The notes below the pieces were generated by a model. The model ran no database searches. It was not told where the DNA came from and was given only the letters and a program-made list of their open reading frames with translations. From assembly GCA_017941355.1 (NCBI GenBank), contig JAGAWN010000256.1, positions 1 through 47,515 on the forward strand: a DNA stretch of 47,515 nt, written 5' to 3'. This stretch comes from Ruminiclostridium sp. (GTDB lineage: Bacteria > Bacillota > Clostridia > Oscillospirales > Ruminococcaceae). Position 1 is the first letter of the stretch; every line of letters begins with the position of its first letter. Position numbers and translations under genes: made by a program. This document shows, piece after piece, positions 12,157-47,515 of this stretch.

Positions 12157-13203
12157 CTATACTTTTTTGAGAATTTTGTCGGATTTGTGAAAAATAATTA
12201 TGCACATTGCTATAAGTATCAGCACAATAACCTTGTTTGCGCTGAAAGTATAGGTATATTCCGATGACAGAGTCGATACGGAGACCGAAATATCGAAGAA
12301 TTGCAATAATATCCACGATATAAGCGCGCTGAGCGCAGCACAGGGAATACGGGCTATAATGAACCGCTTAACAGGGAATGCCCCCTTTACGACTGCCGTG
12401 CATTGCAACAGTACGCAGATGCCGCCGGCGGAAGCTATAGCAGAGACTATGGGTATAAGGTTTACCGACGGTTCCCGCAGTTTCAGCAGATTGCTGATCT
12501 CAAGAGCGCCCGCAAACAGGGGAGGAAACGTTATGCCGAACAGAGCGGCAAATGCACCGAGACAGGCGATAAGCGTGTTGAATGCTACTATAACGGTGCA
12601 TACCGTGAACAATGCGCGTGAAGCGGAATTCACCGCGTCAACGATCCCGCCGTTTACCGATGTCCCCACCTGTCCGGCTTTCAGTTTGCAAGAGCGGGAT
12701 ACTGCGGCTGACGTAATGATACAGGCAAGAACATTTGATATGTATATGACCGCTCCGGCTCCGGTGCTGCCGAAAACCCCATTCCCAAGCATTATCAGCG
12801 CGAATGTCGGTGAGATGCAGTAACAGAACATTGAAGAGTCCCGGCAGCAGTTCACAGCTTCGGGAGAATTTTTATTTTCCGCAATTATTTCTTTCAACAG
12901 CTTCACTCCGATAGGATAGCCGCCGAAAAGACTCAGCAAAAATACCGAAAGAATACGATCGTCGGCTTTGACGATCTTTCGCGCAAGCCACAGAACGGGA
13001 CGGAATATGACCCTGTAAACCCCGGAGGAAAGTATGTATGTGGTTATTGCCATGAACGCGAACATTGACGGTATTATAGTACCCAGACATACATCTATAC
13101 TGTTTACAGCAGATGCTGCGGCTTCATTCGGAAAGAATAGGGCAAGCGCACCGGCGGTAACGGCTGCCGCGGATCTCAGAATTGTTACAGATCTAACTTT
13201 CAC
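12157..13203 (-). CDS. ylbJ: YlbJ-like sporulation integral membrane protein
   Basis: A 348-residue membrane protein with about eight hydrophobic helices. The motif LFGGYPIGVKLL near residue 95 is characteristic of YlbJ, a gated-pore (nucleoside-recognition 'Gate' domain) protein needed for spore cortex formation in Bacillus. The start is GTG at 13203, preceded by AAAAGGAAG; no in-frame ATG is better placed. It diverges from yqfC-yqfD across a 103-base spacer, which groups three sporulation genes. In Bacillus these genes belong to the sigma-E regulon; I see only weak candidate boxes in the spacer. Confidence 0.82.
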   Translation of the reverse strand: MKVRSVTILRSAAAVTAGALALFFPNEAAASAVNSIDVCLGTIIPSMFAFMAITTYILSSGVYRVIFRPVLWLARKIVKADDRILSVFLLSLFGGYPIGVKLLKEIIAENKNSPEAVNCCRDSSMFCYCISPTFALIMLGNGVFGSTGAGAVIYISNVLACIITSAAVSRSCKLKAGQVGTSVNGGIVDAVNSASRALFTVCTVIVAFNTLIACLGAFAALFGITFPPLFAGALEISNLLKLREPSVNLIPIVSAIASAGGICVLLQCTAVVKGAFPVKRFIIARIPCAALSALISWILLQFFDISVSVSTLSSEYTYTFSANKVIVLILIAMCIIIFHKSDKILKKV

Positions 13204-16601: not shown

Positions 16602-17687
16602 ATGGCAAAACTTAAAGTCGGTATCCTGACAAGCGGCGGAGACTGCCCCGGACTCAACGCAACGATCCGCGGCGCTGCCAAAGGCTGTTATCAGCTTTTC
16701 GGAGAAGATAAGGTCGATATCATAGGCATTCACAACGGTTACTACGGGCTTATCCACAACGACTGCGAAAAAATGTCGCCCTACGATTTTGCGGGTATCC
16801 TCACCCGCGGCGGCACTATCCTCGGTACAAAGCGAACACCGTACAAGATGATGCAGGTGGTGGAGGAGGATAACATCGACAAAGTATCCGAAATGAAGAA
16901 AACATATAAGGAGCAGAAGCTTGACTGTCTGCTCACTCTCGGCGGCAACGGTACGCACAAGACCGCGAATCTGCTGTCGGAAATGGGACTGAACGTGATC
17001 GGACTGCCCAAGACCATAGACAACGATATCTGGGGTACAGACGTTACTTTCGGATTCCACACGGCGGTGGATATTGCAACAGATGTTATTGACCGCATAC
17101 ACACAACAGCCGATTCCCACGGACGTGTTATGGTAATCGAGATAATGGGAAATAAGGCGGGCTGGCTGACGCTGTATTCTGGGATAGCCGGCGGCGCGGA
17201 CATCGTGCTTATCCCGGAGATACCCTATGATATCGAAAAGGTAGCCGGAGCCGTGAAGAAAAGAGCAGAGAACGGCAAGACTTTCTCTATCATTGCCGTT
17301 GCCGAGGGTGCAATGGACAAGGAAGAAGCGGAGATGAAGAAGAAACTTCGCGTTAAGGCAAGAGCCGAGCAGGGCTATACAACCGCTACCGCTCGTATTG
17401 CAAAGCAGGTCGAGGAGATCACAGGCTTTGAGACGAGAACCGTTGTTCCCGGACATATGCTGCGCGGCGGAAGTCCGTCCGCTTACGACAGAGTGCTTGC
17501 CACAAAGTTCGGCGTAAGAGCGGCTTCGCTTATAAAGAACGGAAAGTTCGGCTATACCGTGGCAATGGTTGACGGAAAAATAACCGACAACAGACTTTCC
17601 GATGTTGCTATGAAAACAAAATTCGTTCTTCCGGACGATGAACTTGTAATTACCGGAAAGAACATGGGAATATCATTCGGCGATTAA
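16602..17687 (+). CDS. pfkA: 6-phosphofructokinase
   Basis: A 361-residue PfkA-type phosphofructokinase. GILTSGGDCPGLNA (residues 7-20), the PKTIDND substrate motif near residue 137 and MGNKAGWLTLYSG near 183 (from the MGRxxGW motif) are all present. It phosphorylates fructose 6-phosphate in glycolysis. The phosphoryl-donor loop reads GGNGTHK with Asn116 where ATP enzymes have the GGDG Asp and PPi enzymes GGDD. This looks like a subgroup variant, and the donor (ATP or PPi) cannot be decided. SD is GGGAGG. It follows the GHKL-like gene by 21 bases and precedes the GH2 gene by 10, suggesting a carbohydrate-use operon. Confidence 0.92.
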   Translation: MAKLKVGILTSGGDCPGLNATIRGAAKGCYQLFGEDKVDIIGIHNGYYGLIHNDCEKMSPYDFAGILTRGGTILGTKRTPYKMMQVVEEDNIDKVSEMKKTYKEQKLDCLLTLGGNGTHKTANLLSEMGLNVIGLPKTIDNDIWGTDVTFGFHTAVDIATDVIDRIHTTADSHGRVMVIEIMGNKAGWLTLYSGIAGGADIVLIPEIPYDIEKVAGAVKKRAENGKTFSIIAVAEGAMDKEEAEMKKKLRVKARAEQGYTTATARIAKQVEEITGFETRTVVPGHMLRGGSPSAYDRVLATKFGVRAASLIKNGKFGYTVAMVDGKITDNRLSDVAMKTKFVLPDDELVITGKNMGISFGD

Positions 17688-22571: not shown

Positions 22572-23582
22572 TTATTCGTTTTCGTCATCATCTGACGGTG
22601 CCTTTTTGGTTTCAATATTGGCAAGCGGATTCATATACATCGCGTTTCGTATCTGCTCATTCGCAACGTGAGTGTAGATCTGTGTGGTATCGAGGTTTTC
22701 GTGTCCGAGTACCTCTTTCAATGCTCTCACATCGACGCCGTTCTGATACATGAGCGTTGCCGCGGTGTGACGGAGCTTATGCACAGAGAAACCCATTCCG
22801 CTGAGTCCCGACAGTTTCAGCTTTTCGTCGATGATCTGCTCAACCCGGCGGTTGGAGATGCGTGTCAGGCGCTTGCTTATGAACAGCGCTTTTTCCCGTG
22901 TTTCCGGGCGCACTTTTATATAATTCTCATAAGCGGACACACAGGCTGGATTCAGATAGATTATACGCTCCTTGCTGCCTTTGCCGAGTACCTTTATGCG
23001 CGAGACGCTCATTCCGCCCTCAACGGTGGATATGTAATCATGGGTGTTGATCCCGACAAGCTCGGAAAGTCTCATTCCGCAGTTCAGGAAGAACGTGATT
23101 ATGCAGTAGTCCCGGTAATCGCTCCAGTCCCGGAAATCGGAACAGGATCTCAGAAGCTCGGTAGCCTGCTCGACCGTGAGATGCTTCGGCAGTGTCTTTT
23201 TAGGCGAGGGGAGTTCGAGGTTCTGTGCGGGGCTTACTTCAAACCACATCTTCTTAACGGTAAGATACTTGAAGAACTGACGCAGCGCAACAGCTTTCCG
23301 GGCACGCGCCTGTGCGTGATTCGAGCGTTCCGAGGAAGTGAACGAAAGGAATGATATCAGATCATTAAGTGTAACTTTCTTCACAAGCGATTCCGGAACG
23401 TCGGCGATCGTTACGCTGTCAAAGTCTTTTTCGTCGGCAAGCCCGCCGTTGATTTTTATATACCGCAGAAACAGTCTGATATCGGTGTAGTAGTTCTTGA
23501 CTGTAAGCTGTGAGCGCAGTTTAATGGTTTCGATATAGTTTAAGTATTCCTGCAGATAAAACGGGCAATCATCAAATTTCAT
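22572..23582 (-). CDS. xer: tyrosine recombinase of the XerC/XerD type
   Basis: A 336-residue tyrosine recombinase. The N-terminal SAM-like core-binding domain (about 1-110) is followed by the catalytic domain with Arg in NCGMRLSEL near residue 190, HKLRHTAA near residue 270 (H-x-x-R), GHENLDTTQIYTHV near 295 supplying the second His and the nucleophilic Tyr. All key residues are intact. It is stand-alone, with its own promoter and no integrase-type neighbours, so a housekeeping chromosome-dimer-resolution (Xer/dif) role is the best guess. Filamentous phages often use such host recombinases, which is of interest given the phage-like cassette at the right end. Confidence 0.88.
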   Translation of the reverse strand: MKFDDCPFYLQEYLNYIETIKLRSQLTVKNYYTDIRLFLRYIKINGGLADEKDFDSVTIADVPESLVKKVTLNDLISFLSFTSSERSNHAQARARKAVALRQFFKYLTVKKMWFEVSPAQNLELPSPKKTLPKHLTVEQATELLRSCSDFRDWSDYRDYCIITFFLNCGMRLSELVGINTHDYISTVEGGMSVSRIKVLGKGSKERIIYLNPACVSAYENYIKVRPETREKALFISKRLTRISNRRVEQIIDEKLKLSGLSGMGFSVHKLRHTAATLMYQNGVDVRALKEVLGHENLDTTQIYTHVANEQIRNAMYMNPLANIETKKAPSDDDENE

Positions 23583-42641: not shown

Positions 42642-42983
42642 ATGGCACAGAAGAACAACGTCAACGAGGAGGCAGAAGATCTTTTCGGATTTGAAACCGG
42701 AGACGATACTCCCGAGGACGAAGATGAAGTCGCAATCATCGAACTGGAGGGCGAGCGTTATGAGGTCATTGATAATGTGACGCTTGACGGAAGAAACTTC
42801 GTTGCATTGCTGCCGTTTGAGGAGAACGAAGAGTTTGCCGAGGAAGCCGAGTTTACGCTTCTTGAGATCACAGATGATCCGGATAATGCGGATAACTGTA
42901 TTTTGAAAACGGTAGATGATGAAGAACTTTACCAGCGTATAGGAGATGCTTTTCTGGAGCATTTCGGCGCGGACGAAGATTGA
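42642..42983 (+). CDS. DUF1292 family protein (YrzB-like)
   Basis: A 113-residue very acidic protein. VAIIELEGERYEVIDNVTLDGRNFVALLPFEE and the following VDDEELYQRIGDAF are the DUF1292/YrzB core; function unknown. The ATG at 42642 is preceded by AAAGGGAGGTG. It sits behind a consensus promoter. A structured RNA starts within about 20 bases of the stop, so the mRNA may carry it as a 3' part or the RNA may have its own start. The gene is flanked on both sides by non-coding RNA. Confidence 0.85.
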   Translation: MAQKNNVNEEAEDLFGFETGDDTPEDEDEVAIIELEGERYEVIDNVTLDGRNFVALLPFEENEEFAEEAEFTLLEITDDPDNADNCILKTVDDEELYQRIGDAFLEHFGADED

Positions 42984-43215: not shown

Positions 43216-43671
43216 TCAAATCCCAAGATATCTCAAAAGCCCATCGCAACCGGCTTTAATATCATCATAAGTTTCATCGAAATTCCCGGTGAACCAAGGA
43301 TCGGCAATGCTTTTGCTGCTGCCGGAAAACTCCGGGAGTTTATAAACTTTGTGCATCTCATCGCCGCCAACGATTCGCACAATATTACGGATATTTGCAT
43401 CGTCCATTCCGATAATCAGATCGTATCTGTCATAATCGGAGCGTTTCAGCTGCTCGGCATATTTGTTTTTCGGAACTATACCGAATTGCGCCAGCTTTCT
43501 CATAGTACCGTGATGCGGAGGATTACCGATCTCTTCGGTGCTTGTTGCGCGCGATTCTATCAGATACATATCATCAAGCCCGCGTTCTTTCAGCATATCC
43601 TTGAACAGGAACTCTGCCATCGGTGAGCGGCAGATGTTACCGTGGCATACAAAACAGATTCTTTTTATCAT
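43216..43671 (-). CDS. low-molecular-weight protein-tyrosine phosphatase
   Basis: A 151-residue LMW-PTP. The catalytic P-loop is CHGNICRS at residues 9-16 (C-x5-R-S) and the general-acid Asp sits in DPWFTGNFDETYDD near residue 125, as in the family's DP motif. Members act on Tyr-phosphorylated proteins, often of polysaccharide synthesis, or on arginine phosphate (YwlE type); the residue after the first Cys of the P-loop is His here, so the type is undecided. It is alone on the minus strand between two RNA loci. Confidence 0.92.
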   Translation of the reverse strand: MIKRICFVCHGNICRSPMAEFLFKDMLKERGLDDMYLIESRATSTEEIGNPPHHGTMRKLAQFGIVPKNKYAEQLKRSDYDRYDLIIGMDDANIRNIVRIVGGDEMHKVYKLPEFSGSSKSIADPWFTGNFDETYDDIKAGCDGLLRYLGI

Positions 43672-43834
43672 TTCTGTACCTCAATTTTCTAATACGCCTA
43701 ATTTCGTAAAATAAAAAGTTTGACCGTAAAGAATAATGCTTACAGCTTAATGCATAGAATGGAACTTATACCGAAATAACCTTTCGTGCATCGGATCCGG
43801 TCAGATCGGAAATCTCTCCCGCGTCTTTTCTCTA

Positions 43835-44090
43835 TCAGGGTAAAAAGTCCCCCGCGTAGGGGGACCGGCAGCAGTTACAAAAATACAACCAAAGCCATTC
43901 GTTAAGTGTACACTATAGGTCTTTACGATAGCTCCTCCGTGAACGCTGCCGAGGGGACGACGAATGAAAGCCCGCTAAGGTGTATCTGTTCTATATGACG
44001 AGAAGGTGCAGCGCCCTGAATCGAGTACGTGAACAAAATGAACAATTTGAAGAATCCCCGGAACTCAGCAGAGTAGCCCGGGGTTTTTGC
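43835..44090 (+). ncRNA. pseudoknotted RNA with own terminator, possibly raiA-type
   Basis: Four helices are visible. P1 is TCAGGG (43835-43840) with CCCTGA (44014-44019). P2 is GTCCCCC/GGGGGAC (43847-43865). CGGCAGC (43866-43872) pairs with GCTGCCG (43945-43951), and CATTCGT (43896-43902) with ACGAATG (43960-43966); these two cross, giving a pseudoknot. A terminator follows at 44056. Length (~185-250 nt) and complexity recall the raiA RNA of Firmicutes, but no raiA gene is adjacent and I cannot align it. The 163 bases upstream (43672-43834) hold no clear promoter or gene. Confidence 0.48.
44056..44090 (+). terminator. terminator of the pseudoknotted RNA
   Basis: CCCCGG (44056-44061) pairs with CCGGGG (44078-44083), with an inner CTC/GAG step, followed by TTTTT. 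A further 7-bp hairpin, ACCCACG/CGTGGGT, lies at 44092-44115. Confidence 0.82.
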
Positions 44091-44169
44091 TACCCACGTT
44101 CGGTAATACGTGGGTTCATTGTACAGAGTGTCTAGCCCTCGCGCCTTTGCTGATGCGGGTTTGCGGCAG

Positions 44170-44200
44170 TTGTTAGAGATAATGTTTAATAGTCTAACAA
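44170..44200. repeat. 8-bp perfect inverted repeat near the phage-like segment's left side
   Basis: TTGTTAGA (44170-44177) and TCTAACAA (44193-44200) flank a 15-base AT-rich spacer. It could be a protein-binding or recombination site; no direct duplicate is present in the window. Confidence 0.5.
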
Positions 44201-44217
44201 TAATGAGTATTTATATG

Positions 44218-44242
44218 AAAAAGCCCCGCGAACGGGGCTTTT
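44218..44242 (-). terminator. terminator of the coiled-coil gene
   Basis: AAAGCCCCG/CGGGGCTTT with a 4-base loop directly after the stop codon of the minus-strand gene; TTTTT follows in that direction. Confidence 0.85.
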
Positions 44243-44243
44243 A

Positions 44244-44507
44244 TTAACTTATCTTTCTTGGCTCTTCCGGAATAGGGTATGGACGGTCTTCTTTAAAGTA
44301 GAAGTCTATCCATTCACCAATAGAATTAGTAACATCTCTTGTGATCTCGGTATCTTCTTTGAGCTGAGCGATATCTTCTTTCATATCTGATACTTCGTTT
44401 TTTAACTGCTCAATGTCAGCTTTCATCTGCGCGATGTCTTTTTTTATTGGTTCGGTTTCTCCTTGAATAATCGCCTTTATCGCCTGTAAGTCCTGCTGAT
44501 CTAACAT
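44244..44507 (-). CDS. small coiled-coil protein
   Basis: An 87-residue protein made almost wholly of charged heptad repeats (EPIKKDIAQMKADIEQLKNEV, then SDMKEDIAQLKEDTE), a dimeric or trimeric coiled coil, with a short C-terminal segment carrying Trp and Phe. Similar small proteins are common in clostridial chromosomes and near mobile elements; function unknown. It has its own consensus promoter overlapped by an inverted repeat and a terminator directly after the stop. SD AAAGGACGG is 9-10 bases from the ATG. Whether it belongs to the phage-like segment is uncertain. Confidence 0.75.
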   Translation of the reverse strand: MLDQQDLQAIKAIIQGETEPIKKDIAQMKADIEQLKNEVSDMKEDIAQLKEDTEITRDVTNSIGEWIDFYFKEDRPYPIPEEPRKIS

Positions 44508-44539
44508 ATTATGTACCGTCCTTTCTTTGAGGTATCATC

Positions 44540-44568
44540 ATTATATCATAAACTTGTGTGTATGTCAA
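44540..44568 (-). promoter_or_regulatory. promoter of the coiled-coil gene with overlapping operator
   Basis: On the minus strand TTGACA (44563-44568), 17 bases, then TATAAT (44540-44545). The inverted repeat GTGTGTAT (44556-44563)/ATACACAC (44576-44583) overlaps the -35 box and suggests repression. Confidence 0.78.
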
Positions 44569-44590
44569 GCGATATATACACACCTTTTTT

Positions 44591-44635
44591 ATCTCCGAAT
44601 TATGGCTGATCTTTCAATCAGCCATAACCGGAGAT
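44591..44635. other. long perfect-arm hairpin, candidate packaging or replication signal
   Basis: ATCTCCG...TTATGGCTGAT (44591-44610) pairs with ATCAGCCATAA...CGGAGAT (44617-44635): 18 base pairs with a small internal loop and a 6-base loop. Neither side has a U-tract after the hairpin, so it is not a plain terminator. In filamentous phages such a hairpin in the intergenic region is the packaging signal or part of the origin; here that is an inference from context. Confidence 0.55.
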
Positions 44636-44648
44636 GATTTGATAAAGA

Positions 44649-44744
44649 TTAATGATTAAATTTGTCTTTAATTCTTAGTATTAATCCTTTTATTGTTGCA
44701 CCTAGCAGTACAAATAAAAGTATTGGTATTAAATATTCAATCAT
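44649..44744 (-). CDS. 31-residue membrane protein
   Basis: A short ORF of 31 codons whose first two thirds are a single hydrophobic helix (EYLIPILLFVLLGATIKGLIL) followed by a basic tail (RIKDKFNH). The ATG overlaps the end of the repressor gene by 8 bases, with GGATGTGA upstream, so it is likely translated with the repressor. Size and layout resemble tiny phage coat or lysis/superinfection-exclusion proteins; no specific function can be assigned. Confidence 0.55.
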   Translation of the reverse strand: MIEYLIPILLFVLLGATIKGLILRIKDKFNH

Positions 44745-44985
44745 TTTTATCACATCCTTTTACAATTATTTTCTTTATATCAGATAATCTTGCAATATAA
44801 TCTAAAGATACTTGATAGTAATTTGCATAAATTTTGGCAATATCAAGTGGTAGCGATCTTTCATCTGTTTCGTATCTGATATATGAATTTTTTGAAATAT
44901 GACCTATTTCTGCACATTCTGCTTGCGTTAGGTCATTATCCTCTCTCAAATCTCTTAATCTTGTTTCAAATAATCTTGTCAACAT
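44737..44985 (-). CDS. XRE-family transcriptional repressor (phage-type)
   Basis: An 82-residue protein that is little more than a Cro/C1-type helix-turn-helix (LRDLREDNDLTQAECAEIGHISKNSYIRYETDERSLPLDIAKIYANYYQVSLDYIARLSD). SD is GAGGTGA. It is transcribed away from the coat-gene operon; between them lies a promoter region with two inverted 12-bp repeats, the likely binding sites of this protein. The arrangement is a typical lysogeny or copy-control switch. It overlaps the 31-residue membrane protein gene by 8 bases. Confidence 0.88.
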   Translation of the reverse strand: MLTRLFETRLRDLREDNDLTQAECAEIGHISKNSYIRYETDERSLPLDIAKIYANYYQVSLDYIARLSDIKKIIVKGCDKND

Positions 44986-45003
44986 TCAAATCACCTCAAA
45001 AAA

Positions 45004-45009
45004 ATTATA
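45004..45009 (-). promoter_or_regulatory. -10 box of the repressor promoter
   Basis: TATAAT on the minus strand, 19 bases before the repressor start codon. The -35 position is poor, and the nearest operator copy lies in the spacer region, so autoregulation is likely. Confidence 0.5.
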
Positions 45010-45017
45010 TCAAAATG

Positions 45018-45058
45018 CTCCATATGGGGTTGACAAAATACCCCATATGGAGTATAAT
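45018..45058 (+). promoter_or_regulatory. operator-flanked consensus promoter of the coat operon
   Basis: TTGACA (45030-45035) and TATAAT (45053-45058) are 17 bases apart. CTCCATATGGGG (45018-45029) and its exact reverse complement CCCCATATGGAG (45041-45052) flank the -35 box and fill the spacer, so bound repressor would block RNA polymerase directly. Confidence 0.88.
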
Positions 45059-45106
45059 TGTTTTTGGATAGTTGTTTCTATCTAAAAATTATAGGAGGAT
45101 ACCAAT

Positions 45107-45361
45107 ATGAAAGTTACGTTGGTAGGATTCAAGTCCCTCGACTTTACCAGCAATGAGGGCAATCAGGTAAAAGGTGTTAAGTTATTTTATGCGTATCCTG
45201 ATGCAGATGTAAGCGGTAACGCAACCGATGATGTGTTTCTTGCTCAGAATGTGTTTGACAGCTTCGGCGTGAGCATGGAGCAGCTGAACGATTCAGTTGA
45301 TTGCATAATAGAATTAGAGTTCGGCAAGCGCGGCAAAGTCGTTGGTCTAAAGGTGGCTTAA
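45107..45361 (+). CDS. small ssDNA-binding-like protein (putative)
   Basis: An 84-residue protein, all predicted beta structure: MKVTLVGFKSLDFTSNEGNQ, VKGVKLFYAYP, then a C-terminal VDCIIELEFGKRGKVVGLKV pair. This has the look of the small OB-fold ssDNA-binding proteins (gpV type) that coat filamentous phage DNA, and similar proteins occur in Gram-positive mobile elements. There is no signature motif, so the call is structural. SD AGGAGGAT is strong. It is the first gene after the repressor-controlled promoter, and its stop overlaps the next start by one base. Confidence 0.58.
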   Translation: MKVTLVGFKSLDFTSNEGNQVKGVKLFYAYPDADVSGNATDDVFLAQNVFDSFGVSMEQLNDSVDCIIELEFGKRGKVVGLKVA

Positions 45362-45606
45362 TGGGTGGTAATACGATTATTCAATGCGATTGTCCGGATT
45401 ATACGGAGTATCTGCAATCTATTCTGGATAATCAAGAAGCTGAGATAGAACAGCTTGAACACCATACTGAAATACTCATGGAAGAGATCAACGGATTAAG
45501 TCTGATCGTAAACTATCAATTTGCAACAATAGGAATAGTGGTTATCTTTTCGGTGGTATTGGCTGCCTGGAAGATACTCAGTAAATGGTTCTTCGGCGGT
45601 GTCTGA
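45361..45606 (+). CDS. small single-TM protein of the phage-like operon
   Basis: An 81-residue protein. The N-terminal half is hydrophilic with two Cys (QCDCPDY) and a heptad-like stretch (QEAEIEQLEHHTEILMEEI); the C-terminal third is a TM helix (FATIGIVVIFSVVLAAWKIL) ended by a basic/aromatic tail. The ATG shares a base with the preceding stop (TAATG). By position it could be a minor coat or assembly protein; sequence alone does not tell. Confidence 0.65.
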   Translation: MGGNTIIQCDCPDYTEYLQSILDNQEAEIEQLEHHTEILMEEINGLSLIVNYQFATIGIVVIFSVVLAAWKILSKWFFGGV

Positions 45607-45640
45607 CCGTCTGAACATAAATTATAAAGGGGGTTTTAAA

Positions 45641-45943
45641 ATGTTTGAGAAGATCAAGGAAGCTGCTAAGAATGTAAAATTCAAAGCTAAGTACGCTATA
45701 GCTCCTGCTGCTGCCGGTGTTTCCGGTGTCGCTATGGCTGTAGCTGCTGGCGCAGAAGGTGAAACCGGTGCTGGTACAACGTTCTCCGTTCCGCTTATCA
45801 GTGAAAGTATTACAACTGGAATGATGTCCGGGATCATGGCTCAGATCACAAGTCTTCTTCCGGTAATACTGCCGGTGCTGGTTGGTGTTCTTGCTTTCCG
45901 CAAGGGACTCTCATTCTTCATCGGAATGATTCGCGGTCTCTGA
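45641..45943 (+). CDS. major coat-like protein (inovirus type, putative)
   Basis: A 100-residue protein. The basic N-terminal EKIKEAAKNVKFKAKY, an Ala/Val-rich hydrophobic core and an AGA-type cleavage site form a signal peptide of about 37 residues. The mature part is short: an acidic, small-residue N-terminus, a long hydrophobic helix (ITSLLPVILPVLVGVLAF) and a basic end (RKGLSFFIGMIRGL). That is the pattern of filamentous phage major coat proteins, where the basic end faces the DNA. The ATG at 45641 has GGGGG upstream. A terminator follows directly, as after gene VIII in Ff phages. A VirB2/TrbC-like pilin is the alternative. Confidence 0.68.
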   Translation: MFEKIKEAAKNVKFKAKYAIAPAAAGVSGVAMAVAAGAEGETGAGTTFSVPLISESITTGMMSGIMAQITSLLPVILPVLVGVLAFRKGLSFFIGMIRGL

Positions 45944-45970
45944 TCTGTAAGATGTCTGCACAAAAATAAG

Positions 45971-45999
45971 TGGGCGAAGCGAACCGCCCATTTATTTTA
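45971..45999 (+). terminator. terminator after the coat-like gene
   Basis: TGGGCG (45971-45976) pairs with CGCCCA (45985-45990) around GAAGCGAAC-type loop bases, followed by TTTATTTTA. It is short and may be leaky, giving more coat protein than downstream products. Confidence 0.72.
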
Positions 46000-46018
46000 C
46001 AATATAAAAGGTGTGTAT

Positions 46019-46258
46019 ATGAAAAAAAGATATAATATAATGCTCAATCCTGCGATAGTTGCGAAGATAGATTATCATGCAGATAAACTTGATATCTCAA
46101 GGTCTGATCTTATAAACAGAATATTGTTCGATGAGCTTTCAAATTATGGAGATGTTCCTGATCTGTCGGATCCGGAGCTTGACGGACAGGTTGATTTCTC
46201 GGAGGTTTACAATGAAGAAAATAATCTCGATACTGCTTGTATTGACAGTGCTTGTTAA
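46019..46258 (+). CDS. ribbon-helix-helix DNA-binding protein
   Basis: A 79-residue protein whose first 40 residues are an Arc/CopG-type ribbon-helix-helix: strand KRYNIMLN, helix PAIVAKIDYHADKLD, turn ISRS and helix DLINRILFDELSN. The remainder is acidic. The ATG at 46019 has AAAGGTG upstream. Its last 47 bases overlap the start of the long secreted protein gene, so the two are translated together. It is a likely phage-encoded regulator of replication or transcription. Confidence 0.75.
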   Translation: MKKRYNIMLNPAIVAKIDYHADKLDISRSDLINRILFDELSNYGDVPDLSDPELDGQVDFSEVYNEENNLDTACIDSAC

Positions 46259-47515
46259 TGTTATAGGGTTCGGTTTCTTTAATGTTCATTCAGAAGCTGT
46301 TTTTGTCGAAGTTGCAAGCGGTGTAGTTTTATCCTTAGTTGCCGGTGCAATTCTCGGAGGTCTTTCCGGTCTTGCTGCAGATGCAATTGAATCCAATCAA
46401 TACAAGTTCTTCCAGGAGCATGAGAACTTGATTGAAAAAATAAACAATCACGCTATTGAAAACGGAGATTTGATACAGGTTAACGAACGTAGGAACTCTG
46501 ACGGCAGTTACACATACTGGATCGAACCGGTATCAGGTCTTAGTGATGATGAGCAGGAGTTTGTACAGGATATATGTGATAGTGTTAATAACGGTTCCGG
46601 TCTTGATAGTCTGGTTACATCTTATCTTGCTTACAACTCCGGAGAAGATTTGGATCATGGAGCAAAGGCTTCCGCAAGCTCATATGCTGCTTTCAAAAGT
46701 GATGTAACAAACGCTTTCTGTGATTATGTAAATAAGAAAGCCCTGGGAGACGCTTTCACATCGGAGATGATTTCAGATTATCAGCTTGATTGGAAGACCG
46801 GCGGAGTACCAACAATAAAGCTACCGTCTGTAGCACAATACATGGAATCAACGTACAGCGGTTATACTATTTCTACTCCAATAGTTCTTGAACGAGACGA
46901 CGGGTATTTTATGAATGATAATTTAGGTAGTCAGTTTGGATGTACATTAAATTGGTTTTCGGGTAATGATAAAGACGGTTATAAATATGAGTGGAAATTT
47001 GATACTTCTAAAGGCGCTTATGGATATGGTGCTTATATAATTTACAATAATAAGCTCTATTTCTGCGGTCGAGGCGCCGTTTATGATTATTATACTTCTT
47101 CTCAATTTTATAGTGATGATACATTTACTAAATCAATAGTTGATAGGGGTTATTTTGTATCAGCTGACGGCGAGAACCTGAAAGATGTGTATAATGGTAG
47201 TATTGCCGGGCTTCGTGCCGGTCTTTATTTCGTAAAAGATAAGAATAATCCTCTTAATCCGTCGATTACTATTAACGGTTCTGATCTTGAAACTGATGTC
47301 GGCGGCGGTGTGGTAGGTATACCGCTTACAGATGACGAACAAACAGTAGCAGCTGCAATGTCGTTACCGATCTTGTCAGCCGATCCGGTTCTTACGATCG
47401 GATCGGACGGCAAAATAACAGCTGTTGACGGAATAGATACATCTACATTGGAGGGAATAGTTGATAATATCGCTGAAAACGGCGATGAAATAAGCTTTGC
47501 AAACAACAAGGAAGC
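46212..47515 (+). CDS. large secreted protein, candidate phage attachment/minor coat protein (partial)
   Basis: An open frame of at least 434 codons that continues past the window. The start has GGAGG 6 bases upstream, inside the RHH gene. An N-terminal signal peptide (KKIISILLVLTVLVNVIGFGFF) precedes a second hydrophobic Gly/Ala stretch (VVLSLVAGAILGGLSGLAADAI). The rest is polar and rich in Asp, Ser, Tyr and Gly, with several Tyr-rich beta-like segments (near residues 255-310). In filamentous phage order a long secreted protein after the major coat gene is the receptor-binding pIII equivalent; this fits, but no homology is recognised. No frameshift is seen. Confidence 0.7.
   Translation, partial: MKKIISILLVLTVLVNVIGFGFFNVHSEAVFVEVASGVVLSLVAGAILGGLSGLAADAIESNQYKFFQEHENLIEKINNHAIENGDLIQVNERRNSDGSYTYWIEPVSGLSDDEQEFVQDICDSVNNGSGLDSLVTSYLAYNSGEDLDHGAKASASSYAAFKSDVTNAFCDYVNKKALGDAFTSEMISDYQLDWKTGGVPTIKLPSVAQYMESTYSGYTISTPIVLERDDGYFMNDNLGSQFGCTLNWFSGNDKDGYKYEWKFDTSKGAYGYGAYIIYNNKLYFCGRGAVYDYYTSSQFYSDDTFTKSIVDRGYFVSADGENLKDVYNGSIAGLRAGLYFVKDKNNPLNPSITINGSDLETDVGGGVVGIPLTDDEQTVAAAMSLPILSADPVLTIGSDGKITAVDGIDTSTLEGIVDNIAENGDEISFANNKE

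Follow-up and report, generated by a model that had tools for sequence, protein, structure and literature searches.

At its right-hand end, the window, a stretch of 47,515 nucleotides of contig JAGAWN010000256.1 from Ruminiclostridium sp. (genome G000, assembly GCA_017941355.1), carries what would be the left ~3.8 kb of a prophage, running from 43701 to the contig end at 47515. The series opens at 43701 with a half-site of hybrid dif type, after which come 0.5 kb of non-coding DNA holding a predicted nick hairpin, an accessory gene and the gene for an HTH repressor with an operator/promoter; the genes beyond encode an RstB-like ssDNA-binding protein, a protein with one TM, a coat-like and an RHH protein, and finally a pIII-like secreted protein that is cut by the contig end. 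The initial annotation had proposed a temperate filamentous phage (inovirus) from a series of repressor, operator-promoter, ssDNA-binding, one-TM, coat, terminator, RHH and secreted elements, every one of which is present. It placed the start of the element at 44244; because the conserved non-coding region and the dif-type half-site come before this position, we move the start to ~43701. The eight phage ORFs comprise seven of 34-100 aa and the one cut at 434 aa, and those with homologues are open over their full length as far as the contig end. This arrangement goes beyond chance, for genomes of the same genus carry homologues of the repressor, SSB, coat, RHH and secreted genes in a similar order. 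The AT-richer composition ascribed to the element holds for ~44250-45250 (G+C 0.29-0.34 in 500-base steps) but not for its remainder, whose 0.36-0.47 compares with the 0.37-0.48 of host DNA between 40 and 43.7 kb.

The candidate left attachment site, attL (43701..43728, + strand), was recognized by alignment to the hybrid sites of three relative loci, L011 (from 5070), L010 (13827-13854, - strand) and L008 (from 11939). It consists of the arm ATTTCGTAAAA (43701-43711), the centre TAAAAA (43712-43717) and a phage-type other arm (43718-43728). Set against these three sites, the window has the same centre, a single base change in the dif arm and 1, 2 and 5 changes, respectively, in the phage-type arm. 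Only the hybrid form occurs in the window; a half-site alone is not rare, and a second copy with one mismatch lies at 12869. Homology to syntenic host relatives ends between 43671 and 43692, directly after a gene for a low-molecular-weight protein tyrosine phosphatase (43216..43671, - strand; PF01451, 111.1 bits), whose homologue is near dif in two relatives, at 1.2 kb in G032 and 2.2 kb in G014. The host Xer-type tyrosine recombinase (22578..23582, - strand) is the orthologue of the gene that adjoins dif in relatives, 87% identical to that of L011, and scores 207.2 bits with the XerC model, below its cut-off of 335. In G000 this gene is 20 kb away from the att site and has no dif adjoining it. 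Searching the whole of G000 with up to three mismatches returned no complete dif, as expected if the complete site sits at the unseen right end, and no empty orthologous attB was found for this genome. No recombinase was seen among the phage ORFs of the window, nor did reading through the translated ones of L010 and L011 by eye reveal any.

The intergenic region that follows (43729..44240, + strand) can be aligned with L008, L010 and L011 at a mean column identity of 68% and is likely a replication/packaging region. It contains a hairpin, CCCCC-GCGTA-GGGGG (43849..43863), that is identical in all four aligned phages, and a stem-loop, ACCCACGT-tcggtaat-ACGTGGGT (44092..44115, + strand), which we predict to be the rolling-circle nick site (dso). 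A search pattern for this stem-loop, set after the first examples had been seen, gave seven matches in the 946,166 bases on both strands of 27 sequences, all seven in phage loci, against a mean of 0.05 in 20 mononucleotide shuffles; the pattern is absent from the phages of L083, L097 and L126. The stem covaries in two of eight pairs with 56/56 cells paired, two of five covariation measures failing to exceed shuffles.

The next three ORFs lie on the opposite strand. The Cro/CI-type HTH repressor (44737..44985, - strand) matches HTH_3 (PF01381, 43.8 bits) and is 61% identical over 64 aa to its homologue in L097 and 48% over 66 aa to that in L011. It may act on the operator-promoter found by promoter scan at 45018..45058 (+ strand), CTCCATATGGGG-TTGACA-aaata-CCCCATATGGAG-TATAAT, in which a 12/12 sigma-70-type promoter (45030-45058) lies within a 12+12 bp inverted repeat (45018-45029/45041-45052); promoter-like sites in total are not above expectation (13 vs 11.6 in shuffles). 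The accessory gene (44244..44507, - strand) has its own 12/12 promoter (44568-44540, - strand) and encodes an 87-aa coiled-coil-like protein, for which the 25 Pfam matches listed include only coiled-coil families below their curated cut-offs; a search of 29 relative loci at E 0.05 gave no homologue. Between these genes, an uncertain 34-aa peptide with one hydrophobic, possibly transmembrane stretch (44649..44753, - strand) is likewise without a homologue in the 29 relative loci.

The 84-aa ssDNA-binding, RstB-like protein (45107..45361, + strand) has homologues in six of 198 other genomes, all of the same genus. Its predicted structure (pLDDT 92.5) matches a protein of Inoviridae sp. ctsTh7, an RstB-like protein and, more weakly, the SSB of Thermus phage OH3, and its sequence is 34% identical to the RstB-like protein of bajarodino virus 60. 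The next gene (45361..45606, + strand) encodes an 81-aa protein, probably a minor structural one, with one TM by hydropathy; its identity is 48% with L009 (69 aa), 45% with L083 (73 aa) and 32% with L097 (73 aa). The 100-aa major-coat-like protein (45641..45943, + strand) shows by hydrophobicity a basic leader, a signal-like segment, a TM and a basic end. It matched no Pfam or PHROGs family, and its identity reaches 49% over 102 aa with L083, 65% over 54 aa with L009, 64% over 56 aa with L097 and about 30% with L008 and L010. A terminator-like hairpin 3' of the coat gene (45971..45990) was called on the - strand and is followed by a T-rich stretch on the + strand too; such sites number 8 against 2.7 in shuffles. 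Structural proteins of 30-90 aa with a single TM, and short genes that are uncharacterised or resemble other inoviruses, are among the inovirus features given by Roux et al. 2019 (PMC6813254) and are found here, the coat exceeding 90 aa only prior to its assumed processing.

The 79-aa ribbon-helix-helix regulator (46019..46258, + strand) overlaps the next gene and is assigned through relatives, with 76% identity over 63 aa to L010 and 77% over 62 aa to L011; RHH_1 gives 15.1 bits, under the cut-off of 20.5. The secreted adsorption-type (pIII-like) protein is represented by its first 434 residues (46212..47513, + strand), 36% identical over 440 aa to the 607-aa protein of L010, which has a TM segment at 580-598. 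Its homologues occur in four of 70 other genomes of the genus, each time in a phage adjoining dif, and it has no match in the phage collection searched.

The same criteria of Roux et al. 2019 include a pI/Zot-type ATPase with one or two TM segments and a replication initiator in the same cluster (PMC6813254). The initial annotation advised looking for such an ATPase, a rolling-circle or Rep_trans initiator and a right attachment repeat downstream of 47515, where the contig ends. Neither PF05707 nor PF02486 nor the L083 ATPase had a match when G000 was searched; it is in relatives that ATPase, initiator and right repeat are seen. PF05707 reaches 73.6, 77.9 and 77.9 bits in L010, L011 and L012 (cut-off 20.3), and 21.9 and 23.6 bits in L083 and L097, an AAA family scoring higher in L083 (23.2); in L082 and L009 it stays below the cut-off, at 18.8 and 19.7 bits. 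By hydropathy the L010 ATPase has no TM segment, and those of L083 and L009 have an N-terminal one; the open frame of the L009 ATPase ends early. Rep_trans (PF02486) is present in L009-L012 at 111.6-121.5 bits (cut-off 29.6) and also in L082, L083 and L097, and the initiator motifs RxD, YxKxxE and W/LxRxE, taken from PMC5714925, were found in all eight initiators examined. In L010 and L011 Zot and Rep_trans are clustered with homologues of the SSB, RHH and secreted genes of the window, and in L010 also with a weak coat match. Zot there lies between the RHH and secreted genes. This place is empty in the window, where the RHH gene continues into the frame that the end of Zot uses and the secreted gene directly follows the RHH codons; therefore the ATPase of the window phage either lies downstream or has been lost. 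The former arrangement is found in L009 and L083, which have no Zot between the two genes and carry an ATPase after the secreted gene instead. Conjugation machinery, which the initial annotation had named as evidence for an ICE or plasmid, did not turn up next to these genes in the inovirus-type relatives, whose translated ORFs were inspected and in part profile-searched.

Across the genus, 32 of 71 genomes have a single palindromic dif-type site each (pattern with up to two mismatches), the other 39 lack the pattern, and the backward control gave 0 matches. The spacing between xer and dif is 53-125 bp in 22 of the 32, an arrangement not shared by G000. In the one-contig genome G014, dif lies at mid-genome, where the cumulative GC skew has its broad maximum. 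Rep_trans was detected in 11 of the 71 genomes (12 copies), and in nine of these 11 its 3' end faces dif at 308-1463 bp. In G029 there are two copies, separated by an att half-site; in G020 a perfect diverged dyad lies between xer and the Rep_trans gene next to it; and G032 is an exception, its Rep_trans being located elsewhere with its own recombinase. L010 and L011 have dif-type att sites at both ends, complete at one and hybrid at the other, as does L082 with two mismatches, and L009 yielded the complete dif alone. The landing site looks like the chromosome's dif site. The Xer system may possibly work with one recombinase: the XerD equivalog cut-off is reached in none of the 71 genomes, but a second XerD-like gene outscores the dif-type one in G000, G014, G005, G061 and G029, among others.

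Taking the gene set, the hybrid att site, the covarying hairpin and the predicted SSB fold together with Zot, Rep and dif in relatives, we consider it very probable that the stretch starting at 43701 is the left part of a Clostridia inovirus prophage, cut off by the contig end and apparently integrated at dif by the host Xer. The proposed temperate filamentous phage is thereby supported as far as the contig extends. A decaying inovirus remnant that has lost Zot, and perhaps Rep, and no longer makes virions, its repressor and structural genes being relics, would account for the empty Zot place and for the lack of an ATPase or Rep in the rest of G000. We regard it as unlikely, as Zot is missing there in L009 and L083 too, which have their ATPase after the secreted gene, the window ORFs with homologues are open with promoter and operator intact, and the missing part starts at the contig end.

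That the contig ends inside the phage, in a bin with 3.97% contamination, might suggest that binning or assembly wrongly joined phage DNA to a host contig. Such an artefact is very improbable, since the xer of the genus and the phosphatase gene whose homologues are close to dif in G014 and G032 are on this contig as well, and other genomes of the genus have related phages at dif. Even harder to credit is a small integrative mobilizable element with a MobT-type relaxase that borrows a conjugation system. PF02486 is common to MOBT relaxases and Rep_trans initiators (PMC6499999) and the L010 initiator distantly matches the MobT model NF041493 (70.8 bits, cut-off 600), but coat-like, pIII-like, RstB-like SSB and Zot-type ATPase genes share clusters, and the Zot and Rep of L010 match circular Inoviridae records. 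Among these records are bajarodino viruses 24 and 34, which like bajarodino 60 come from rodent faeces and are filed under Inoviridae; Dulem viruses match too. Bajarodino 24 and 34 have the order small genes, long hypothetical gene, small gene, Zot and then Rep, and bajarodino 24 is 44% (Rep) and 42% (Zot) identical to L010; however, 24 and 34 show no convincing match to the SSB, one-TM, coat, RHH or secreted protein of the window, and neither a dif half-site nor the ACCC hairpin was found in the three genomes.

For an inovirus prophage at dif, the following cycle can be proposed. A phage circle with a dif-like attP would be recombined with dif by the host Xer; the left end would then be the hybrid attL, and at the right end, by rep, a complete dif would preserve chromosome dimer resolution. 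The HTH repressor, bound to the inverted repeat around the 45030-45058 promoter, would keep the structural operon off. Upon derepression, the Rep_trans initiator may nick the 44092-44115 hairpin and start rolling-circle replication, the RstB-like protein would coat the ssDNA, and at the membrane a Zot/pI-type ATPase would swap that protein for the coat protein and extrude the filament, with the secreted protein serving as tip/adsorption protein.

In CTXphi, RstB is the SSB and Zot the ATPase. CTXphi/VGJphi-type inoviruses and other Proteobacteria IMEX are likewise small filamentous prophages that use Xer at dif and leave dif intact (PMC5357621, PMC2731167, PMC3025954), and the CTXphi initiator is also of the Rep_trans type (PMC5714925). 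The Gram-positive inoviruses described here appear, from their att sites, to exploit host Xer as CTXphi does, but differ in their host, in a dif that adjoins xer, possibly in the use of one Xer enzyme, and, for the phage of the window, in a secreted protein unmatched among the phages searched. In the single-recombinase modules XerS/difSL and XerH/difH, xer adjoins a palindromic dif as in this genus (PMC2731167, PMC5357621), whereas the present enzyme is not of the XerS family (XerS model 127.9 bits, cut-off 267) and its dif has an 11+6+11 layout. Also close, by description, are the Enterocloster/Hungatella inovirus prophages of gut Clostridia, of 6.5-8.5 kb (one of 16 kb) with direct-repeat flanks, for which secretion was shown in Enterocloster; the available text of that report does not name dif or Xer as the site, and counts only two earlier Gram-positive producers of filamentous phages (PMC10061712).

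Gram-positive filamentous phages are little known, and one genus now has a definite address for them, at dif adjoining xer. This address is the new part: the dif/Xer link, missing from the initial annotation, is of more interest than the inovirus identity, and among the titles and abstract openings listed by searches of the open-access literature, a set in which subscription papers mostly do not figure, none reports a dif-integrated inovirus in a Gram-positive host. Tentatively, and with the balance falling a little short of even, the xer-linked single-recombinase dif module of this Clostridia genus could be the standard landing site of diverse mosaic filamentous phages, sometimes in tandem and with a complete dif kept at the rep end, outside the XerCD Gram-negative world. 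A definite address means that carriers can be found by checking one site per genome, and that even a draft genome can be recognized as that of a lysogen by its hybrid att site. Should one Xer enzyme suffice, the genus would offer a simpler system for how phages use the dimer-resolution machinery without destroying it.

The phage part of the window opens at 43701 with a hybrid attachment site (43701-43728), made of one dif arm and one phage-type arm, and runs to the contig end. By itself such a half-site is no rarity in 47.5 kb (another one-mismatch copy lies at 12869); the copy at 43701 is convincing because the next 0.5 kb can be aligned with L008, L010 and L011, three stretches around phage-type genes in related genomes. 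Since the window is an entire 47,515-base contig of the G000 assembly (4.52 Mb, 300 contigs, 99.0% complete, 3.97% contamination), the phage part is truncated at an assembly break and not at a biological end. As far as this contig allows, the initial annotation was right to propose an inovirus, and each piece that it listed is found in the sequence. Its proposed start at 44244 does not stand, and the boundary is shifted to 43701. The operator-promoter surpasses the initial description, with a perfect TTGACA flanked by two 12-bp arms, CTCCATATGGGG and CCCCATATGGAG, that adjoin a perfect TATAAT; the structural-operon promoter scored 12/12 in a scan of the window. Another 12/12 promoter (44568-44540, minus strand) is directed to the 87-aa accessory gene; promoter-like sites in total are not in excess (13 versus 11.6 by chance). 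The accessory genes beside the repressor (window 44244-44507, L008:12905-13540, L011:5565-6059, L012:12175-12762, L097:15975-16577) vary among the phages in the manner of a cargo slot, and by eye some of them resemble one another and nucleases.

Two other readings were set aside. An ICE or plasmid is disfavored by translated ORFs nearby, in which no conjugation machinery was seen by eye, and by the presence of Zot and coat-type proteins; chance ORFs are ruled out by homologues in like order. An Rfam search of the phage part gave no matches. Upstream, a 6S RNA-like match (RF00013, 43000-43175, plus strand) reached 34 bits, below the gathering score of 46.4, and was cut at the start of the searched stretch; RF00013 was not reported at the gathering threshold when the search began at 42700. 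The DNA near this match (query 1-209) has matches in many genomes of the genus.

The 84-aa candidate single-stranded DNA-binding protein (SSB) was modeled with AlphaFold from an eight-row alignment (mean pLDDT 92.5, pTM 0.77); the model has five strands and two short helices. When it was compared with predicted viral structures by Foldseek, 1068 matches at E<=10 were returned, five of them reaching E 0.001. The second-ranked is a protein of "Inoviridae sp. ctsTh7" (36% identity, TM 0.79) and the fifth an "RstB-like protein", ranks 1, 3 and 4 carrying no name; rank 6 (E 1.3e-3, TM 0.54) comes from Thermus phage OH3, described as filamentous, and is its single-strand DNA binding protein. By sequence, the SSB is 34% identical to the RstB-like protein of bajarodino virus 60, and its profile found nothing convincing among PDB sequences (best E 0.48).

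Among 199 genomes searched, SSB homologues occur in the window's own genome and in six of the 198 others, each a member of the same genus. Five of the corresponding stretches (L008-L012) are inovirus-type clusters. The sixth, L013 in genome G044, was rejected as the same kind of phage, being a weak match (33% over 43 aa) in surroundings unlike this phage type. The L008 contig stops short of any ATPase or Rep. Complete clusters are present in L010 and L011, which share the order SSB, one-TM protein, coat, RHH regulator, Zot-type ATPase, secreted protein, 88-90-aa TM protein and Rep_trans initiator, the roles of the small proteins being assigned from position and hydropathy. The Pfam Zot domain scores 73.6 bits in L010, 77.9 in L011 and 77.9 in L012 (cut-off 20.3), and Rep_trans 121.5, 116.6 and 118.3 bits, respectively, with 111.6 in L009; in PHROGs, the L010 ATPase is grouped with Zot-like proteins and M13 protein I.

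We compared the window proteins across 29 relative loci. The coat is 49% identical over 102 aa to that of L083; over shorter stretches it reaches 65% with L009 (54 aa) and 64% with L097 (56 aa). Its identity to the L008 and L010 coats is about 30%, and no homologue was found in L011. The one-TM protein matches L009 (48%) and L083 (45%) and has no homologue in L010 or L011 in this comparison; the SSB is 41-57% identical to L008-L012 and has none in L083. RHH is closest to L010 and L011 (76-77%), and the repressor is 61% identical to that of L097. The secreted protein shares 36% identity over 440 aa with L010, 30% with L083, 28% with L011 and 24% with L009. Because these homologies split among different relatives, the window phage is a mosaic of their types. 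Secreted-protein homologues occur in four of the 70 other genus genomes (G011, G059, G002, G015), in all four less than 4 kb from dif; the L010 protein has 607 aa with a TM segment at 580-598, the window copy comprising 434 residues. This protein had no match in the phage collection, and scanning viral_contigs with one protein at a time (coat, secreted protein, SSB) gave no hits. An alignment-based scan of viral_contigs gave seven loci, matching the first 39 residues only; the three that were translated resemble Gram-negative inoviruses by eye.

The right part of the window phage was sought in three ways in the rest of G000 and not found. In L083 and L009, whose coat and one-TM proteins are of the window's types, the secreted gene is followed by genes for a TM-type protein of 102-104 aa, for an ATPase whose N terminus bears a TM segment, and for Rep_trans; the open frame of the L009 ATPase ends early. 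In L010 and L011, Zot lies between RHH and the secreted gene, and the same place is empty in the window, suggesting from gene order that a Zot cassette may have been gained or lost at this junction. The window RHH gene (46019-46258) adjoins the secreted gene and overlaps its start, as the end of Zot does in L010. RHH residues 62-79 were considered as a possible relic of Zot; as this overlap explains the match equally well, only the empty junction was used. Our preferred guess for the window phage is the L083/L009 layout, in which the ATPase follows the secreted gene, combined with a Rep of the first of two groups distinguished below. The alternative is that the phage is defective, a reading to be set beside the empty junction and the missing right part on one side, and the contig break and the L083/L009 gene order on the other.

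The assignment of a first-group Rep draws on a predicted nick hairpin, which may resemble the transfer origins of ICEBs1 and Tn916. Rep_trans and MOBT enzymes are described as having conserved nick sites (PMC12614216), exposed in hairpins (PMC5714925). The hairpin, ACCC-NNNN-loop with TAA-NNNN-GGGT, lies in a non-coding region of the window, L008-L012 and L082. The pattern, written after the first examples had been seen, has seven hits in 946,166 bases (27 sequences, both strands), all in these phage loci, compared with a mean of 0.05 in 20 mononucleotide shuffles (1-kb blocks). In the stem of eight pairs, all 56 cells pair and six show double changes; both values and the covariation score exceed all 500 shuffles, but variation is confined to two of the eight pairs. 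Two more measures, the number of pairs with double changes and the number of additional pair types, are no higher than in the shuffles (reached by 247 and 188 of 500). Pairing in slid versions of the stem is <=50%, a control that favors a structure read off the same sequences. Where a Rep is visible beside the hairpin (L009-L012, L082), the Reps are 37-73% identical. Those of L083, L090 and L097 form a second group (28-35% among themselves, 21-29% to the first); the pattern is absent in L083 and L097, and L090 is cut short. It is also absent in L126, a further dif-side phage whose Rep is not assigned to either group. Because the hairpin follows the first group, its presence in the window suggests that the window phage would encode a Rep of that group.

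The complete site in L011 is a perfect 11+6+11 palindrome, ATTGCGTAAAA-TAAAAA-TTTTACGCAAT, with a hybrid at the opposite end, and L010 carries the same pair. In these two genomes (G002 and G011) the same two genes, one for a hydrolase and the other, xer, for the host tyrosine recombinase, flank the phage, which has opposite orientations in the two, with the dif centre turned accordingly. L082 has dif at one end and a half-site with two mismatches at the other, and in L009 the complete site alone was found. With <=2 mismatches, the pattern TTGCGTAAAATNNNNATTTTACGCAA occurs exactly once in each of 32 of the 71 genus genomes (backward control, 0). It is exact in 16; among the other 16, arm changes are mirrored in six (G014, G032, G013, G025, G046, G042) and not in ten. 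The pattern is absent at this tolerance from 39 genomes and so does not explain the whole genus; among them is G020, where a dyad with different arms occurs. In 22 of the 32 the matched part of xer (threshold E 1e-30) lies 53-125 bp from dif; the other ten comprise single genomes with distances of 556 bp, 1270 bp and 7661 bp (the last with an intervening prophage), five with xer on another contig and two without a hit. In the single-contig genome G014, dif is at 1.447 of 2.695 Mb, within the broad top of the cumulative GC skew (0.56 at 1.08 and 1.22 Mb, 0.53 at 1.49, 0.51 at 1.76) and thus near the terminus, the sampling in 20 stretches being coarse. The genus site therefore looks like dif. 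No gene in the 71 genomes reached the XerD cut-off, and in several a second XerD-like gene scores above the dif-type xer. No complete dif was found in G000, either at <=3 mismatches with a single centre or at <=2 with any centre, as would be expected if its dif lay at the prophage's right end, past the contig break. The 190 bases before its xer (22578-23582, minus strand) hold no dif-type site, so xer and dif are separated in this lineage.

Rep_trans (PF02486) is present in 11 of the 71 genomes, in 12 copies. In nine it lies close to dif, always with its 3' end toward the site (distances measured from the matched stretch: G015 308 bp, G028 507, G049 567, G029 665, G002 857, G059 892, G046 945, G007 1330, G011 1463). 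A second Rep of G029 lies 7.9 kb from dif, with a perfect 17-nt attachment half between the copies, and we read the pair as tandem phages; in L097:8900-20000, from this genome, a complete inovirus-type cluster at dif is followed by the end of a second, the half-site copy lying between them at 17330. G020, without a pattern match, has a perfect 28-nt dyad with other arms between Rep and xer; no ATPase or coat was recognized on its contig. The inovirus-type cluster of G032 (L012:6044-12762) is not at dif, and a tyrosine recombinase gene of its own directly follows Rep. The contigs of G000 and G063 (L008) end before Rep. An initiator at dif or xer in 10 of 11 genomes, the sole exception having an integrase, is the strongest evidence, on genomic position, that these phages would use the host Xer.

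Inoviruses have been recorded from nearly all bacterial phyla in a 2019 survey (PMC6813254), and in Clostridia they are secreted by Enterocloster strains (PMC10061712). Proteobacterial filamentous phages use Xer at dif, which is kept intact (PMC3025954, PMC5357621, PMC2731167), and xer adjoining dif is established for XerS and XerH (PMC5357621, PMC2731167). Among the best matches in the open-access literature we found no report of a Gram-positive inovirus at dif, or of any inovirus at a xer-linked dif. Inoviruses in Clostridia, Xer/dif use and xer beside dif are thus each already known, and what would be new is the Gram-positive inovirus together with a xer-linked dif. The link of these phages to dif and Xer across the genus is the part worth pursuing.
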